NCBI GenBank assembly: GCA_024277815.1
Contig: JAJRUM010000050.1
Location: 1 to 64,000, forward strand
DNA: 64,000 nucleotides
DNA from: Gammaproteobacteria bacterium
GTDB taxonomy: Bacteria; Pseudomonadota; Gammaproteobacteria; Xanthomonadales; SZUA-36
Direction: 5' to 3'
Both the position numbers and the translations under genes were made by a program. The number at the start of each line of letters is the position of its first letter. Position 1 is the stretch's first letter. Positions 24,538 to 33,368 of this stretch are shown piece after piece. The notes beneath the pieces were generated by a model. That model did not search any database and was not told the DNA's origin. It saw only the letters and a list, made by a program, of their open reading frames with translations.

Positions 24538-25304
24538 CTGCGCTGGTTTGCAAGTCTCTGGATATCAGCATTGCAGGTAATACCATTTGCAACAACCTTG
24601 ACCTGAAACTTGAACGCGGCCAGTTCTGGGGCTTGCTGGGGCCAAACGGCATTGGCAAAACCACGCTTCTCAAGTGCATGGCCGGCTTGATGCCGCCCGA
24701 TGCCGGTAACGTTTATCTCGCCAATCAGTCTATTGAAAAATTACCTCGCCGGGCAATTGCACGACTCCTGGGCATGCTGCAGCAACATACTGTTTACGTG
24801 TTTGATGCCAGCGTATTGGAAACCGCCCTGACCGGCCGGCACCCACACCTGGGACACTGGCAGCGAGAAGGCGCTGATGACAAGCGCAAGGCGCTGGAAG
24901 CTATCAAGGCTGTCGACCTTGAGGGTTTTGAAGCCCGCAGTGTCACCGGCCTTTCGGGTGGTGAAGCGAGACGTCTCGCATTCGCCTCACTACTGGTACA
25001 GGAGCCTGCAGTACTGCTGCTGGATGAACCCACCAACCATCTGGATATGAAGCATCAGGTTCGTATCATGAACCGGGTTGAGCAACAGATTAATCAGCAG
25101 CAACACTGCGCGCTGGCTGCGCTGCACGACGTCAATCTCGCCGCCCGCTACTGTAGCCATATCCTGATGTTGTTTGGCAATGGCTTGTGGCAGGCCGGGC
25201 CGGTGGCCGAACTGCTAAACCCGGCAACGCTGGAAAAGCTGTATCAGTGCCCCGTGGAATCCGTTCAGACTTCGACGGGAGAACGCTTTCTGGCCGGCGG
25301 GTAA
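24534..25304 (+). CDS. ABC transporter ATP-binding protein, FecE/BtuD type
   Basis: A 256-residue ATPase that powers the adjacent permease on the cytoplasmic face. Walker A is GPNGIGKTT (36-44), the signature is LSGGEARR (140-147) and Walker B is VLLLDEPTNHLD (160-171), with H-loop ALHDVNLAARYC. I start at ATG 24534, which overlaps the permease stop by four bases. The open frame continues 138 codons upstream but only as a shadow of the permease. The gene ends one base before the convergent stop of the membrane protein gene at 25306. Confidence 0.93.
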   Translation: MTALVCKSLDISIAGNTICNNLDLKLERGQFWGLLGPNGIGKTTLLKCMAGLMPPDAGNVYLANQSIEKLPRRAIARLLGMLQQHTVYVFDASVLETALTGRHPHLGHWQREGADDKRKALEAIKAVDLEGFEARSVTGLSGGEARRLAFASLLVQEPAVLLLDEPTNHLDMKHQVRIMNRVEQQINQQQHCALAALHDVNLAARYCSHILMLFGNGLWQAGPVAELLNPATLEKLYQCPVESVQTSTGERFLAGG

Positions 25305-25305
25305 C

Positions 25306-26133
25306 TCAGCGACTGGAATCAAAATTAAACGTCAGACCCGGACCGGACAACCTTATCAGGTGACGCAAGAACAACATCATCAACACTGACATGGCGAGCA
25401 TTTCAAGGAACTCTTCCAACGATTTAGAAAAATGGGCAACCCAGCGCATGCTTAAATCAAAGGTGCCGCCAAACCAGGCTGCCAGGTTGAGTGGGTGGTT
25501 GAATTCCAGCCCTTCAAAAAAATCCAGCCCAACAGCCAGCCCCATCAGGGCCGCTGCCGAAAACAATAACAACCGCTCGCCACCGGTGTTGAATTCCCGC
25601 CACAGGAAGAACAGCATAAACAACCCTGCCGCCACCAACGCAGGCAAGGCTACCAACTGCCATTCATAGCTGGGAAACAGTTCCTGAATTTTTCCGAACA
25701 GCCCACCCGAATATCCGTAATTATCTGATTCATAAACTTTCTCCGCCAGGGTTCCAAGACGTTCGTGGATCATGGCACCGTCGTCAGCAGACAGATAGGT
25801 AAAGAAGCCCGCCAGGAAACCCCAGCCAGCGACCCGTCCACGAGTCACTCCCCGGCTGCGCTGGAGCAAGAATATGACCCACAAAATCAGGCCGGTGATA
25901 AAAGTCTGTATGACCATGAACCAGGTCGCCAGGCCATCTTCACGGGTGATATTAAAGAGCCGCCGAATGGTTCCGTACTTGCTCCATTCGGCATAGTTTA
26001 CAAAGGCGTCGAGAAAAACAAACAGCAGTTCTGCCAGCAGGCAAAAAATAAAAATACGTGTCGGCAGGCTTTGTCCGCTGATGGGTATGCTGCCACCGGG
26101 CAAACGGCCGGCCCCATTGTTGCTCGAATTCAT
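25306..26133 (-). CDS. Multi-pass membrane protein of unknown function
   Basis: I do not recognise a named family. The 275-residue protein has about six hydrophobic segments (for example FIFCLLAELLFVFLDAFVNY, FMVIQTFITGLILWVIFLL, LVALPALVAAGLFMLFFLW). A conserved-looking loop, FFTYLSADDGAMIHERLG, contains acidic residues and a histidine that could bind metal. ATG 26133 has GGAG six bases upstream and is preferred over a TTG at 26166. It is the last gene of the minus-strand run that starts with the RND pump, 63 bases after the carrier-like gene. Cotranscription and an envelope-transport context are inferred. Confidence 0.7.
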   Translation of the reverse strand: MNSSNNGAGRLPGGSIPISGQSLPTRIFIFCLLAELLFVFLDAFVNYAEWSKYGTIRRLFNITREDGLATWFMVIQTFITGLILWVIFLLQRSRGVTRGRVAGWGFLAGFFTYLSADDGAMIHERLGTLAEKVYESDNYGYSGGLFGKIQELFPSYEWQLVALPALVAAGLFMLFFLWREFNTGGERLLLFSAAALMGLAVGLDFFEGLEFNHPLNLAAWFGGTFDLSMRWVAHFSKSLEEFLEMLAMSVLMMLFLRHLIRLSGPGLTFNFDSSR

Positions 26134-26196
26134 GTCTGGCTCCGCATCAACATCAATATAGCACAAGGACTAAAGGTGCTCTGGCTGTGCTGTAGC

Positions 26197-26811
26197 TCAT
26201 GCAATGGTACTGTCCAGTTGCCCCCTCAAACGCACATAGGCCCTGCCGAGATGCCAGGCGGCAAACGCCCACATAGCGAGTATCGGGATGTAGGCACAGG
26301 CAATCTGACCGATAGAGAGACCTGCAGTCATCATCCCTTTGAACAGCCAACTGGCAGTAACGTCACTGCCACGGTAAACCACAGTATCAATAAAGTTCTT
26401 GCTTTTGTACTTGGTCTCGCGGTCAACCACCGTAAACAACATCTCTTTGACGGGTCCCAAAAGGCCATAGTTCAGTGCCCGCTGGGCGACCTGAACCGCC
26501 GCAAACAACACCAACCCCAAAGAACTGCCCAGCAGGGTAAAACCTGCCGCCAGTAAAACCGGTGGTAAAACTGCTGTACGGGGCATGCCAAGATACACGA
26601 CAAGCCGGGCAGTAATCAGAAACTGGAACAGAAAGGCCAGCACCTGCACAACCAGATCTACATAGCTGAAAAACTGTGTGCGCTCATCAAACCCGATGAT
26701 GCTCTGGTCAACCAGCACCGCCAGGCCGTTGAATAAGAAGGTTGAGGTCAAATTGTGCGACAACATCACCAGGCAAATCAGCAACAGGTACTTTGACCTT
26801 AATACATGCAC
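26197..26811 (-). CDS. Carrier-like membrane protein, C-terminal half
   Basis: The 204-residue frame encodes about six membrane segments and ends GQLDSTIA. It continues the frame of the N-terminal half (26863-27453) exactly. Only the TAA at 26865-26863 interrupts, and the codons between stop and ATG 26811 read on as NAPAKIIGGSIWEGAVHVLR, as expected for the linker of a 12-segment carrier. Together the halves make about 418 residues, similar to MFS or ATP/ADP-antiporter-like carriers. GGGAGG lies nine bases before ATG 26811, so separate translation of this half is possible. It may be a nonsense pseudogene, a split protein or readthrough. Confidence 0.7.
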   Translation of the reverse strand: MHVLRSKYLLLICLVMLSHNLTSTFLFNGLAVLVDQSIIGFDERTQFFSYVDLVVQVLAFLFQFLITARLVVYLGMPRTAVLPPVLLAAGFTLLGSSLGLVLFAAVQVAQRALNYGLLGPVKEMLFTVVDRETKYKSKNFIDTVVYRGSDVTASWLFKGMMTAGLSIGQIACAYIPILAMWAFAAWHLGRAYVRLRGQLDSTIA

Positions 26812-26862
26812 AGCACCCTCCCAAATACTGCCACCAATAATTTTGGCAGGTGCATTGCTGCG

Positions 26863-27453
26863 TTACTGCCGTTCAAAACGGCCCATGATAATCGCGAAGG
26901 CCGTCGCCCCGAACAGAAACAGTATCGCCACAATCATGATGCCGCCCGGACCAATATCAGCGACCCATTTAGCCGTCAGGACGGGGCCGGCAATAGCGCC
27001 AAGGCTGCCACCCGCCATAATGCTGCCGAAAAGTCGCTGCGCCTGGCCCGGACGAAATATATCCGCCATAAAGCTCCAGAAAATTGACACCACAAACAGG
27101 TTGAAAACGCTGAGCCAGACATAAAAACTGTATTGAATCCAGTCACCAGGCTCATCGCCGTTGAAAGCAAAAGCAAAGGCGAAAAAAAACAGGTTGGAAA
27201 TAAAGAACAGATAGATACCCGGAATAAAACGGCCACGCCTGAATTTTGAAACCAGCCAGCCAAACAGGGGCACGATCAACAGCATCGAAATAAAAGTTGC
27301 GGTATACAGCCAGTGCAAGGATTCAGAGTGGTTGGCTGCCACCGCGCCACGAATTGGCCGCAGCATGAAGTAGCCGGCCAGCAGGAAAAAGAAATAGCTG
27401 AAAGCCAGCAGGAAACGTGGCCACTCACCGCGATGGATATTGATAAGATTCAA
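26863..27453 (-). CDS. Carrier-like membrane protein, N-terminal half ending at an in-frame TAA
   Basis: A 196-residue product with about six hydrophobic segments (FLLAFSYFFFLLAGYFMLRP, FISMLLIVPLFGWLVSKFRR, IYLFFISNLFFFAFAFAF) and the motif GSIMAGGSLGAIAGPVLT. It resembles the first half of MFS or nucleotide-antiporter-like carriers. It ends at TAA 26865-26863 after GRFERQ, but the same frame stays open beyond it to 26197. The start is TTG 27453, only six bases after the adaptor stop and in the same frame, with a weak ribosome site. A single C-to-T change (CAA to TAA) would explain the stop. Confidence 0.7.
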   Translation of the reverse strand: MNLINIHRGEWPRFLLAFSYFFFLLAGYFMLRPIRGAVAANHSESLHWLYTATFISMLLIVPLFGWLVSKFRRGRFIPGIYLFFISNLFFFAFAFAFNGDEPGDWIQYSFYVWLSVFNLFVVSIFWSFMADIFRPGQAQRLFGSIMAGGSLGAIAGPVLTAKWVADIGPGGIMIVAILFLFGATAFAIIMGRFERQ

Positions 27454-27459
27454 GTACTG

Positions 27460-28506
27460 CTAGCCCTGCATGATGGTCACAGTCCGGCCTGTCCGCAAGC
27501 GCTCATTACCACGAATTACGACGGTATCCCCCGCATCTATGTCACCGTTTACTTCTATTTTCTGCCCTGCACCGATTCCGACCGTGACCATCACCTGTCT
27601 TGCCATCCGGTTCTCATCGAGAACAAAAACAGAAATGCCTTCCGGCCTCAATACCAATGCATCGCGGGGAACCACCAGTGCCTGCCTGGTTTCAGAAGTC
27701 GGCACCAAAACACGCAAGGTCTGGCCGACCGGAAAAAGATTGCCCTCAATATCAAGCCGCAACTCAAACTGGTGTGTGTTTTCAGAACCAACTGCCACAA
27801 CGGTTCTGACCGTACCACTCGCAACGACAGCACCTGCCCTGATTTCCAGTACCTGACCAGGCTGCACAAAGGAGTAATATTTCAATGGTGCCCTGGCGAT
27901 TACTTCCAGGCGGTGCTGGTTGACCATGCGCACAACATTCTTGCCAACATCCACACGCTCACCCGGCATCGTCAACCGCTCAACCACGATTCCATCGAAC
28001 GGTGCCCGGATGCGGGTACGCGCCAACTGGTCTTCAATCTGCTTTAAACGTGACTCTGCCACCCGCAAATCACCCCGCGAAACATCCCGGTTGGAGCGTG
28101 TTTCCTCAAGTTTGGTTGCCGCAGCCAAATTCGATTCGGCCAGTTTCACATAACGCTGCTCTTCGCTTTCCAGGTAACCCAGTCTGGCCCGGGCACGCTC
28201 CACTTCAGCAACAAGCTCGTCCCTTCTTAGCCTGATAACCGTGTCCTCCACCCGGGCAATGATATCGCCTCTGGCTGCCACAGTGCCGACATCCGCCACC
28301 TCCAGCAATCGACCAGTCACTTCTGCGGACAGCCGGGCTTCATCACGGCTGACCACTGTTCCAGGCACAACGGTCATCGGCGCCAGCATCTGCATTTCTG
28401 CGGTGGCAACCCGTACAATCGCCGCTTGCATATCGCCCTGGGCAAAAACCATACCCGGCAACGCCAGCGCAACACACAGCCAATATGAACTTTGTAGTTT
28501 TGTCAT
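27460..28506 (-). CDS. RND efflux periplasmic adaptor subunit (HlyD/MFP family)
   Basis: A 348-residue membrane-fusion protein that links the inner-membrane RND pump to an outer-membrane channel. The signal peptide ends near GMVFA. The lipoyl-like half-motifs, SAEVTGRLLEVADVGTVAARG and TRIRAPFDGIVVERLTMPGE, flank a short coiled coil (residues about 90-145, rich in Glu, Leu and Arg). The C-terminal membrane-proximal domain includes VVPRDALVLRPEGISVFVLD. It has no lipobox. The gene starts 26 bases after the pump stop, so they share a transcript; no TolC-like channel is encoded nearby. Confidence 0.92.
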   Translation of the reverse strand: MTKLQSSYWLCVALALPGMVFAQGDMQAAIVRVATAEMQMLAPMTVVPGTVVSRDEARLSAEVTGRLLEVADVGTVAARGDIIARVEDTVIRLRRDELVAEVERARARLGYLESEEQRYVKLAESNLAAATKLEETRSNRDVSRGDLRVAESRLKQIEDQLARTRIRAPFDGIVVERLTMPGERVDVGKNVVRMVNQHRLEVIARAPLKYYSFVQPGQVLEIRAGAVVASGTVRTVVAVGSENTHQFELRLDIEGNLFPVGQTLRVLVPTSETRQALVVPRDALVLRPEGISVFVLDENRMARQVMVTVGIGAGQKIEVNGDIDAGDTVVIRGNERLRTGRTVTIMQG

Positions 28507-28532
28507 TTAGGTTAAGTCCCTGCTCGCGGATT

Positions 28533-31500
28533 TCAGCTCATCTCTGAGGCTGGTTGGGTTGCAGTAAACGCGTCTTCGTTAGCACGCAACAAACTGGGCA
28601 GAAGTATTAAGGTGAACAGCGTGCTGACCAACATCCCACCAACAATAACTGTCGCCATGCCTCTGTACAACTCGGTCCCGGCACCCGGCATCAACATCAG
28701 AGGCAGCATGCCGAAAATGCTGGTAACGGTACTCATCAATATCGGGCGCAGGCGCAGGCGCACTGCACTTTCAACCGCAGCCCTTCTGGTCATGCCTTCC
28801 CGCTCTGCGTCACGTGCGCGATACACCAGCAAAATAGCGTTGTTAACCACAAGACCCAGCAGAATAACAAAACCTATCATTGTCAGTAAATCCATTTGCT
28901 GGCCGCCGGATGAACGTAATACCAAATCCATCATGCGCAGCGAGATGACGCCACCAACCGTTGCCATCGGTATGGTAAGAATGACCAGCAATGAATCCCT
29001 GAAGGACCGGAACAGTGCGGAAATCAACAAATACAAAATTACGATCGCCAGTGAGAAACTGCCGGCCATGCTTTTCAAAGCCTGATCCAGTGCTTCGGCA
29101 GTTCCACGCATCTGGATTGATCCATCGGGCGGCAGCTGTTGCATTATCTTCGGCACCACCTGTGCATCGAGCACATCAAGTGCATCTTCCAGCGCCATTG
29201 ACGGCGGCGGAGTCACCTGCAGAGTCAGTGTACGCTTACGGTCTACACGCCGGATCTGGGATGGCCCGGCGGTGCGGGTAACCGTCACCAACTCGCCGAT
29301 GGTCTGTATCTCACCGCTGGCCGTTGCCACGGGCAGCGCAGCCAGCTCCTCTGGCGAGTACCACTGCTCGGCACGCATAATGACGTTATATCGCCGGTTG
29401 CCGTCAAAATACTCGCCCATGAATGCCCCGTCGCCCATCGCGCGGATAATGGTGGCCATGCGCGCCCGATTCCAGCCAACCTCTGCAATTCGCCGGTCAT
29501 CCGGTATCAGCCGTATTTCCGGCTCAGCCTGCTCCAGGCCGGGCAAGGGGCGGATATTGGCGCCAGGCAGCGCTTGCTGAATGGCAGCAAAACCAACCTG
29601 CCCACCCCGGATCAGGGACTCAAACGAGTCAGCCTGTAAGTCAACATTGATCTGCCGCCCCCCCCTTGAACCACCAAAAATTGCACGGCGGCCAGCAAAC
29701 GCAATGGTATCCGGGAACCCCTGCAGGATTTCTGAGTTGAATATATCGATAAATTCATCCACATCTGCCGGGTTCATGGCACTGCCACCAATGAAGGTGC
29801 CAAATGACCGCGAACTGCCCAGAAAATAACCCGCCAGTTGCATGGGGTTCTCACCATTGAGGTATGGTGCCAGCCGCTGATCAATGACATCCAGAACCTC
29901 CCGTTTACCGGTTTCCACACCCATGCCAGGGGGCGCCACGATAAAGCCAAAGATAAAGTTGCGTTTTCCTTCGGGTAAATAGTCTGCTGAAGGCTTCAGC
30001 AACAGCACCAGGATCAATGGCAGAATTGTCAGCCCCGCCACCCATAAACGGCGGCGAACTGGCGTTTCGGTCCAGCGCATGATGTGGTCTGTGGTCCACC
30101 GCCACCAATGGCGATGGACGTCCTCAATCGCACTGCCCCTGACCCAATTGGAAGCGGCCGATGGCAGCACAGTAACCGCCACCAGTAACGACGCAGTGAC
30201 AGCCGCTGAAATTGTCACCGCCAAATCACTGAACAACTGTCCAGCCTCATCCTGCAGAAAAACCACCGGCATAAAGATAGCCACGGTGGTTGCTGTCGAT
30301 GCGAGCAAGGCGCCCCATACCTGTTGGGTTCCACGCTCGGAAGCCTCATCACCATCACGACCGGCCTCACGTTGCCTGAAGATATTTTCCAGCACAACAA
30401 TGGCCGCATCGAGAACCATACCCGTCGCAAAAGCAAGGCCGGCCATGGAAATAATGTTCAGGGTCCGGCCAGTGATACTCAGCACTATGAACGCCGAAAA
30501 CAGGCACAGCGGGATGGAGAGCGCCACGATCAATGTAGCCCGGAACTTGCGCAGGAACCACCACAACACCACCACTGCCAGCAACATACCCAGCAACAGG
30601 TTATTCCGCACCATGGTGATTGATGCTTTGACGTAAACTGACTCATCGTAGTTCTGCGTAATAGTGAGTCCGGCCCGATCGAGCTCATTCGCTGCGAGGT
30701 CAGCAATCGTTGCCTTGATGGCAGTCATCACTTCGAGCACGTTGACACCGGATTCGGGTGTCACATTGACACCAATGGACGGCTTGCCATTCATATGCAG
30801 TACGGTTGAGGCGTCCACCATGGTCATGTGTATCCTGGCAATGTCCTTCAGGCGTATGGCTTCACCATCACGCCACTGAAGGACCAGGTCACCCAGCGAT
30901 TCGACTTCGTATTTACCGCTGAAACGTATCGTATATTGTCGCCGGCCGACTTCGGTGCTGCCCGCAGATATGTTCGCGTTTGAGCCCAGTTCGCGGGAGA
31001 TAGAGGTCAGATCCAGACCGATACTCGCTGCCTTGAAGGGGTCAAAAGTGATTCTGACTTCATTGTTACGACCGCCGAAGGCACCGGTCCCTGAAACACC
31101 CGGCACCCGTTCCAGACGCGTGATAACCGTATCTTCAAGAAAATCCTGATAAGTCTCGATCGGTCGCTCGTTGCCCGGCTTAACCGATACAGCAAACCAT
31201 GCAATGACCTTCTCAAAGCGACTGCCACCTACCCTGATCACCGGCTCATTGGCATCCACCGGATACCTCGGCACCTGGTTCAACCGGTTCATTACTTCAA
31301 TCAGCGCACGGCTCATATCCGTGCCAATGGCAAATTCCATCTGGATGGTGCCGCGGCCAAAACTGGATGAAGACGAAATCCTGAGCAGGCCCGGCACACT
31401 CCGCAGTACATTTTCCTGTGGTTCAAGGATCTCTGATTCAACTTCGCTGGGGGCCGCAGCCCGCCAGGAGGTACTGACAGATATTTCCGGGCGCTCAATT

Positions 31501-31616
31501 TCCGGTGTCATCTGGATCGGCAGGCGCATCAGGCTGAGGGTGCCAAAAATCACCACCAGTATGCCTGCGACAATTACCGCAACGGGGTTACCAAGGGATG
31601 TTCGGGTTAAGGTCAT
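28533..31616 (-). CDS. RND efflux transporter permease subunit
   Basis: A 1027-residue inner-membrane pump of the HAE-type RND superfamily, which exports drugs or other amphiphiles using the proton gradient. It begins MTLTRTSLGNPVAVIVAGIL (first membrane helix); an upstream ATG at 31754 would add an implausible 46 residues. Motif RLPIQMTPEIERPEISVST is family-typical. In membrane helix 4 GMVLDAAIVVLENIF keeps one Asp of the usual pair and has Ala at the second. Helix 10 has VVNNAILLV where AcrB has its lysine. The proton relay is therefore of the single-Asp type. It heads the operon with the adaptor and carrier. Confidence 0.93.
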   Translation of the reverse strand: MTLTRTSLGNPVAVIVAGILVVIFGTLSLMRLPIQMTPEIERPEISVSTSWRAAAPSEVESEILEPQENVLRSVPGLLRISSSSSFGRGTIQMEFAIGTDMSRALIEVMNRLNQVPRYPVDANEPVIRVGGSRFEKVIAWFAVSVKPGNERPIETYQDFLEDTVITRLERVPGVSGTGAFGGRNNEVRITFDPFKAASIGLDLTSISRELGSNANISAGSTEVGRRQYTIRFSGKYEVESLGDLVLQWRDGEAIRLKDIARIHMTMVDASTVLHMNGKPSIGVNVTPESGVNVLEVMTAIKATIADLAANELDRAGLTITQNYDESVYVKASITMVRNNLLLGMLLAVVVLWWFLRKFRATLIVALSIPLCLFSAFIVLSITGRTLNIISMAGLAFATGMVLDAAIVVLENIFRQREAGRDGDEASERGTQQVWGALLASTATTVAIFMPVVFLQDEAGQLFSDLAVTISAAVTASLLVAVTVLPSAASNWVRGSAIEDVHRHWWRWTTDHIMRWTETPVRRRLWVAGLTILPLILVLLLKPSADYLPEGKRNFIFGFIVAPPGMGVETGKREVLDVIDQRLAPYLNGENPMQLAGYFLGSSRSFGTFIGGSAMNPADVDEFIDIFNSEILQGFPDTIAFAGRRAIFGGSRGGRQINVDLQADSFESLIRGGQVGFAAIQQALPGANIRPLPGLEQAEPEIRLIPDDRRIAEVGWNRARMATIIRAMGDGAFMGEYFDGNRRYNVIMRAEQWYSPEELAALPVATASGEIQTIGELVTVTRTAGPSQIRRVDRKRTLTLQVTPPPSMALEDALDVLDAQVVPKIMQQLPPDGSIQMRGTAEALDQALKSMAGSFSLAIVILYLLISALFRSFRDSLLVILTIPMATVGGVISLRMMDLVLRSSGGQQMDLLTMIGFVILLGLVVNNAILLVYRARDAEREGMTRRAAVESAVRLRLRPILMSTVTSIFGMLPLMLMPGAGTELYRGMATVIVGGMLVSTLFTLILLPSLLRANEDAFTATQPASEMS

Positions 31617-31781
31617 TTCTATAGCACCAGTCCATCTTCGGGGAACTATACCCGATTTGCAGCCTTCGCAGGCATGGAAATTGACCAGTTGAAACTGATT
31701 TGGGTCAAGATGCAGAAGAGTTTTCCAGACACAGGTTTCTGAACTTTCCGCCATTGAGTATGATGGTCTGTCAGAAAGACA

Positions 31782-33368
31782 ATGAGATTTGAAATGGATT
31801 ACGACTACATCGTTGTTGGTGCCGGCTCTGCTGGCTGTGTAATGGCAAATCGCCTAAGCGAGAACCTCTCCATTCGGGTGTTGCTGGTTGAGGCAGGAGG
31901 GAGCGACAACAACCCTTTTATCCACATGCCAGCTGGATTGTGGCAGTTGCGGAACAACCGCAAAATTAACTGGGATTACATGACTGAGCCCCAGGCCGGG
32001 TTGAACCAGCGCAGACTGTACTGGCCGCGCGGCAAGGTGCTGGGCGGCTCAAGCTCAATTAACGCGATGATTTATCACCGGGGCCAGCCCGCTGATTACG
32101 ATCAATGGCAGGCCCTGGGCAATCCTGGTTGGGATTTCGACGGCGTTCTTCCCTGGTTTTTGAAGGCGGAAGACCAGCAGCGTGGCAAATCCAGATTCCA
32201 CGCAACCGGCGGTCCTCTATCTGTACAGGATCTCCGGTATGTCAACCCACTGACCCGGGTGTTTGTCGAGGCGGGTGTGCAAATGGGCTACCCGCACAAT
32301 GACGACTTCAATGGCGAACAGCAACATGGCTTTGGTGTCTACCAGGCGACCCAACGCAACGGCCAGCGCTGCAGCACTGCTGTGGCCTATCTCAAACCAG
32401 CCCTCAAACGGCCTAACCTGAATGTGCTGACGCATGCGTTAACCACCCGGCTATTGGTAGAGCAAAACATCGCCACGGGCATTGAGGTTTCCCAGCGAGG
32501 CAAGAGCCACCAGTTTCGCGCTGGACAGATCATACTTTGCGGCGGTGCGATCAACTCACCGCAGTTACTGATGCTGTCAGGGATTGGCCCGGCAGACCAC
32601 CTGCAACAACATGACATTCCGGTGGTTCACGAACTGCCCGGCGTAGGCAAAAACCTGCAGGATCACCTGGATATTTGTACCTTGATTTCAACCTCCAGCC
32701 ACGCCAGCTATGACAAGCTCAACCACGCGCTGGCAGGCCTCAGATACCTGTTTGGGAAAAAGGGCCCAGCCACTTCATGCCTCGCCGAAGGCGGCGGTTT
32801 CGTCACCAGCCGGTTGGCAACTGATTCACGACCCGATATCCAGTTTCATTTTCTGCCTGCATTACTGGACGATCATGGTCGCAACCAGTTGCCCGGGCGC
32901 GGCATGACCATACATGCCTGCCAGCTACGCCCTGAAAGCCGTGGAGAAATTTTGCTGAAATCCGCGAACCCGGGCAAGCCACCGGCCATCCAACCCAACT
33001 ACCTGCAAACCGATCATGACCTTAAGATGATGCTGGAAGGTGGCCGTTTAGCCAGGGAAATCTTTGGTCAGGAAGTGTTCAATTCACTCCGTAGCGGTTT
33101 TATTTTTCCAGAAGACTCTGTACAAACTGAAGCACAGAAGGTGGACTTTATCCGCCGCAAAGCTGAAACGGTCTATCACCCGGTTGGCACCTGTAAAATG
33201 GGAAATGACTCAATGGCCGTGGTCGATTCTGACCTCAGGGTTCATGGTGTTGCAAACCTGCGCGTAGCAGATGCGTCAATCATGCCAAACCTGGTATCGG
33301 GAAATACCAACGCGCCCGTCATCATGATTGCAGAAAAGTGTGCTGCAGCAGTACTCGGTGAAGGCTAG
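31782..33368 (+). CDS. GMC family FAD oxidoreductase (choline dehydrogenase-like)
   Basis: A 528-residue flavoprotein of the glucose-methanol-choline family, which oxidises alcohols. The ADP-binding motif DYIVVGAGSAGCVMANRLSE is near the N terminus. GMC signature 1 is RGKVLGGSSSINAMIYHRG (about 85-103) and signature 2 is GGAINSPQLLMLSGIGPAD. The C-terminal active-site segment VYHPVGTCKMG carries the catalytic His, and GNTNAPVIMIAEK closes the FAD site. The start could be ATG 31782 or ATG 31794. Overall it resembles BetA or AlkJ, but no betaine or alkane genes are nearby, so I give no symbol. It is divergent from the RND operon. Confidence 0.92.
   Translation: MRFEMDYDYIVVGAGSAGCVMANRLSENLSIRVLLVEAGGSDNNPFIHMPAGLWQLRNNRKINWDYMTEPQAGLNQRRLYWPRGKVLGGSSSINAMIYHRGQPADYDQWQALGNPGWDFDGVLPWFLKAEDQQRGKSRFHATGGPLSVQDLRYVNPLTRVFVEAGVQMGYPHNDDFNGEQQHGFGVYQATQRNGQRCSTAVAYLKPALKRPNLNVLTHALTTRLLVEQNIATGIEVSQRGKSHQFRAGQIILCGGAINSPQLLMLSGIGPADHLQQHDIPVVHELPGVGKNLQDHLDICTLISTSSHASYDKLNHALAGLRYLFGKKGPATSCLAEGGGFVTSRLATDSRPDIQFHFLPALLDDHGRNQLPGRGMTIHACQLRPESRGEILLKSANPGKPPAIQPNYLQTDHDLKMMLEGGRLAREIFGQEVFNSLRSGFIFPEDSVQTEAQKVDFIRRKAETVYHPVGTCKMGNDSMAVVDSDLRVHGVANLRVADASIMPNLVSGNTNAPVIMIAEKCAAAVLGEG

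Follow-up and report, generated by a model that had tools for sequence, protein, structure and literature searches.

A single in-frame stop codon in a predicted NTT-like carrier gene of an RND efflux operon in a gammaproteobacterial metagenome assembly

A predicted carrier gene in an RND efflux operon of a gammaproteobacterium is interrupted by one in-frame stop codon. The gene is whole in its relatives and carries no sign of decay on either side of the stop. The window, i.e. the complete stretch of 64,000 nucleotides that we analysed, is part of one contig in a 77-contig genome assembly of 93.8% completeness that was assembled from environmental DNA (a metagenome). On its minus strand, positions 27453 to 26197 form a single frame of 418 codons that ends in TGA and is open except for a TAA at 26865-26863, which takes the place of residue 197. 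Very probably this is a single nonsense codon in an otherwise normal carrier gene, brought about by a very recent substitution or else representing a strain variant or an assembly error. A lone mid-gene stop is ordinary, and as it stands the case has little significance; it does caution that a predicted gene can be cut in two by one base of a metagenome assembly.

The two halves of the gene share one frame, as the original prediction held, and the TAA is the sole stop between them (27453-26866 and 26811-26200, minus strand). The N-terminal half (26866..27453) starts at TTG and covers helices 1-6, and the C-terminal half (26197..26811) covers helices 7-12 from a possible GTG start at 26811 to the TGA. 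Neither a frameshift nor a second stop was found in the frame from 27453 to 26197. Reading through the TAA indeed gives the uninterrupted, twelve-segment carrier of about 418 residues that had been proposed, as the structural model of this product (pLDDT 85.1, pTM 0.87) is read as twelve membrane helices. After removal of duplicates, 33 distinct homologous sequences were available; none of them has an inner stop and all are single uninterrupted frames, to whose N halves the N half of the window's gene aligns in every case. Each of the 33 intact homologues aligns across the stop, which makes it certain that a genuine gene has been interrupted.

A search of the wider family pointed in the same direction. 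The C half was matched at 1e-50 or better in 36 of 39 genomes, and among the genomes that hold the carrier the frame of the window alone is short (221 residues), the other 35 being open over at least 414 residues. One of the three genomes that gave no match had a contig-edge fragment in a looser search. No paralogue matching the C half was found elsewhere in the window's genome. Another genome, G031, has, close to its intact gene, a second copy of the C half that is short and degraded and contains a TGA (G031:C67:27378-27548).

At the column of the stop the 33 homologues have sense codons, as the original prediction had expected of orthologues. Since these codons encode nine different residues, the column is an unconserved linker position. 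The stop had been placed at the midpoint between two six-helix halves. This stands insofar as the read-through model puts it at the end of helix 6, but the midpoint is not remarkable in itself, because 8 of the 81 codons of the gene that are one substitution away from a stop lie within residues 191-220, as do 3 of the 25 that are one transition away. Roughly a tenth of random nonsense mutations would thus hit the linker region, so that the location is not a strong argument for design.

One substitution at this linker position would very recently have created the TAA in the sampled population; alternatively, the TAA would be confined to the assembled consensus, where it would reflect a strain variant or an erroneous base. 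If the TAA is real, translation from the TTG at 27453 would yield a six-helix fragment of 196 residues, and the carrier is probably inactive. A study of two insect endosymbionts reports that few of their pseudogenes give detectable protein (PMC13345370).

We infer the recency of the event from the state of the two halves. The distant homologues L048 and L049 were excluded from the analyses of invariant columns and branch ratios, in which 32 sequences were used. The protein of the window departs from none of the 65 otherwise invariant columns of the N half and from none of the 72 of the C half. The ratio of changes at codon positions 1+2 to those at position 3 on the terminal branch was 0.045 for the N half (genus range 0.035-0.076) and 0.063 for the C half (genus range 0.030-0.087). 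Neither half therefore shows a sign of relaxed selection or of further lesions by these measures. A comparison within the genus alone (ten members) stands somewhat against a recent nonsense codon or an artefact, in that the C half of the window has the most private changes (6 of 146 versus 2-4 in the others); this hints weakly at relaxation, or at changes that followed a split. Moreover, the conservation would look identical were both halves still made and used, so that a very recent event, an artefact and the continued use of both halves are all compatible with the data. The case resembles ordinary bacterial nonsense alleles and young pseudogenes in that a single stop breaks a frame which relatives keep intact, but it differs from them in the lack of further decay and in being known here from an assembled consensus only.

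The recent nonsense decay that was among the options of the original prediction thus fits, as does the equivalent assembly or strain artefact, since relatives have sense codons and there is no second lesion. That the allele is genuine and the carrier a fresh pseudogene is an evenly balanced proposition. The intact relatives, the single lesion and the absence of decay argue for it, but most of the family conserves the operon, so that a loss of its third gene would normally be disfavoured by selection, and no paralogue matching the C half was found in the genome. It is a little less probable, yet to be taken seriously, that the stop stems from a wrong base or from strain variants collapsed during metagenome assembly and that the gene of the organism is whole. 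The genome is a 77-contig assembly short of full completeness, and a lone substitution with no other decay is what an error looks like. The stop is also an isolated event, being the only one of its kind in 123 orthologue pairs (see below). The same observation, together with the lack of deviations at invariant columns, speaks against an artefact as well, in that the assembly is not visibly error-prone.

The background of stops was sampled by comparing 709,744 bases of the window's genome with 1,121,971 bases of the relative G007, each a partial sample; C32:1-20000, a stretch inside the window, was counted once. Above the thresholds 130 orthologue pairs were obtained; 129 remained when only the best single match was kept, and for 123 of these no ORF with a better score overlapped. 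In the first pass, 13 of the 130 pairs had an inner stop and one had a frame change (L089 versus L065, 178 residues, 70% identity). Five of the 13 were rejected as antisense ORFs over a better-scoring gene and another five had the stop ahead of the apparent real start, and two more, by our judgement, are a divergent pair of genes extended at their 5' ends into one shared intergenic stretch. The carrier was the sole mid-gene stop left after inspection among the 123 sampled pairs. In the reverse direction, with the ORFs of the window's genome sought in G007, inner stops appeared in 22 of 147 cases, of which nine were inspected and none was counted. As far as sampled, the genome is neither pseudogene-rich nor visibly recoded, and a genome-wide excess of stops was rejected as an explanation.

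Readthrough of the TAA, which would give the full carrier and had been listed as an option, is highly improbable. That the frame continues past the TAA is the one point in its favour. Against it, no anticodon that reads TAA was present among the tRNAs found; more specifically, ARAGORN detected no tta, cta or tca anticodon in 34 loci or stretches from 35 tRNA matches (in an assembly that is 93.8% complete and may thus lack a tRNA gene), and a weak partial tRNA match at C75:48299-48369 gave no gene. The release factor genes prfA and prfB are both present. An alternative genetic code or a suppressor tRNA was rejected on these grounds. The same holds for a programmed element at the stop: Rfam gave no match within 25000-32000, and the local RNA fold is unremarkable (z -1.25; 25 of 200 shuffled sequences folded equally well). 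Finally, none of the 33 homologues has a stop at that column.

The remaining option was a split transporter. Here the ribosome would restart at the GTG at 26811 and the two six-helix halves would assemble, a reading that we consider unlikely. Several observations are in its favour. In the predicted structure helix 6 ends at the stop and the GTG corresponds to residue 215, just ahead of helix 7 (residues 221-251), which would leave both bundles whole. A Shine-Dalgarno-like GGGAGG (26817..26822, minus strand) precedes the GTG, the sister L032 has neither the GGGAGG nor the GTG, and both halves appear constrained. In the laboratory, split halves of LacY reportedly work together; a literature search on split LacY found no source. 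The break between six-helix halves is common to that system and the window's carrier, but the split in the latter is not conserved, and separate expression of its halves is hypothetical. In fact, relatives lend the option no support, as there is no divided homologue among the 33 and none among the 35 other family genomes that hold the gene, where it is whole. Even less probable is the more specific notion of a natural two-part MFS carrier at the moment of its origin, in which the substitution would end the first half after helix 6, the pre-existing GGGAGG-GTG in the conserved linker motif would start the second half and the bundles would assemble. If both halves proved to be made and active, the case would be a natural example of the step from a fused carrier to a two-subunit carrier, taken at once.

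The candidate restart site itself differs from its first description. An ATG had been reported at 26811, but the codon there is GTG and the ATG close by (26807) lies in another frame; likewise, the GGGAGG was said to lie nine bases before the start, but the spacing from 26822-26817 to the GTG is 5 bases. The motif falls within a stretch encoding W-E-G, which written as TGG-GAG-GGN yields GGGAGG. Because GGGAGG is present in 5 of the 33 intact homologues, and is joined by a start-like codon at the matching place in one of them, the apparent restart site is for the most part a by-product of the stretch that encodes a conserved W-E-G-A-V. Given this motif and the local codon usage, codon choice alone would yield GAG together with GTG with a probability of about 0.17. 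As the sister L032 has neither element, the combination may be new in the lineage of the window, which is not strong evidence. The distance from the TAA to the GTG also counts against a restart, as the gap amounts to 51 nt, whereas in a study on E. coli, translational coupling and reinitiation were nearly abolished at a gap of +38 nt (PMC10666635); the introduction of the same study refers, in addition, to reports to the contrary, in which reinitiation bridged longer gaps. A de novo start at GTG 26811 is possible.

Judged from the gene order in relatives, the carrier is the third gene of a conserved operon that runs from an RND pump via an adaptor to the carrier. On the minus strand of the window, the pump (permease; 28533..31754; PF00873 ACR_tran, 1.8e-184) and the periplasmic adaptor (27460..28506; TIGR01730 RND_mfp, 1.4e-51, above cut-off) are both intact. 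Among nine genomes of the same genus, seven have pump, adaptor and carrier in that order, in one a short contig carries adaptor and carrier, and in one (G009) the carrier occurs without the adaptor in the stretch seen. Outside the genus all three genes are present in 9 of the 12 loci examined. An NTT-like carrier directly behind the RND pump and adaptor was seen across much of the family (window 26200-31754, minus strand; L032-L038, L040-L043, L046 and L051).

The adaptor gene lies in the frame of the carrier, with two codons between its TAG and the TTG, exactly as had been noted. Because the members of the genus start the carrier 3 to 6 nt past the adaptor stop, with the TTG at +6 in five of nine, this close in-frame spacing is an ordinary arrangement of the genus and separate from the lesion. 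TTG starts at 3-6 nt after the adaptor stop were observed in most genus members (window 27450-27462, minus strand; upstream strings of L003, L004, L032, L033 and L035). G009 (L004/L060), the only genus member without the adaptor in the stretch seen, has ATG in the place of the TTG.

With respect to the identity of the carrier, the two halves behave differently in profile searches. The N half gave a weak match to MFS_1 (PF07690, 9.1e-07), below the curated cut-off, and no TLC match, whereas the C half scored above the cut-off for the TLC ATP/ADP transporters of Pfam (PF03219, 1.2e-07; 31.4 bits versus 21). For TIGR00769 the C half reached 22.6 bits, far under the cut-off of 387.2. Searched against the PDB, a profile of 32 sequences matched the two NTT carriers of solved structure (1.2e-11 and 1.8e-09) and nothing else. 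In a structure comparison of the read-through model the top three rows were NTT proteins (Z 37.8, 37.3 and 34.6), followed by LacY (29.6). More specifically, Arabidopsis NTT1 (9j3l) aligned over 411 residues with an rmsd of 2.8 and Z 37.8, and Chlamydia pneumoniae NTT1 (9j3n) gave Z 34.6. The carrier is thus, by its predicted fold, an NTT-like twelve-helix MFS protein for which the ATP/ADP translocator NTT is the nearest fold. The likeness is a predicted one at the level of the fold, with about 16% identity over the structural alignment, and unlike NTT the carrier is encoded alongside an RND pump and adaptor. A nucleotide-carrier-like protein encoded within an efflux operon is a puzzle in its own right. 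Beyond the carrier, a membrane protein of 286 residues (25306-26166, minus strand), for which no significant family match was obtained, has homologues in G003, G005 and G007 on contigs apart from that of the carrier.
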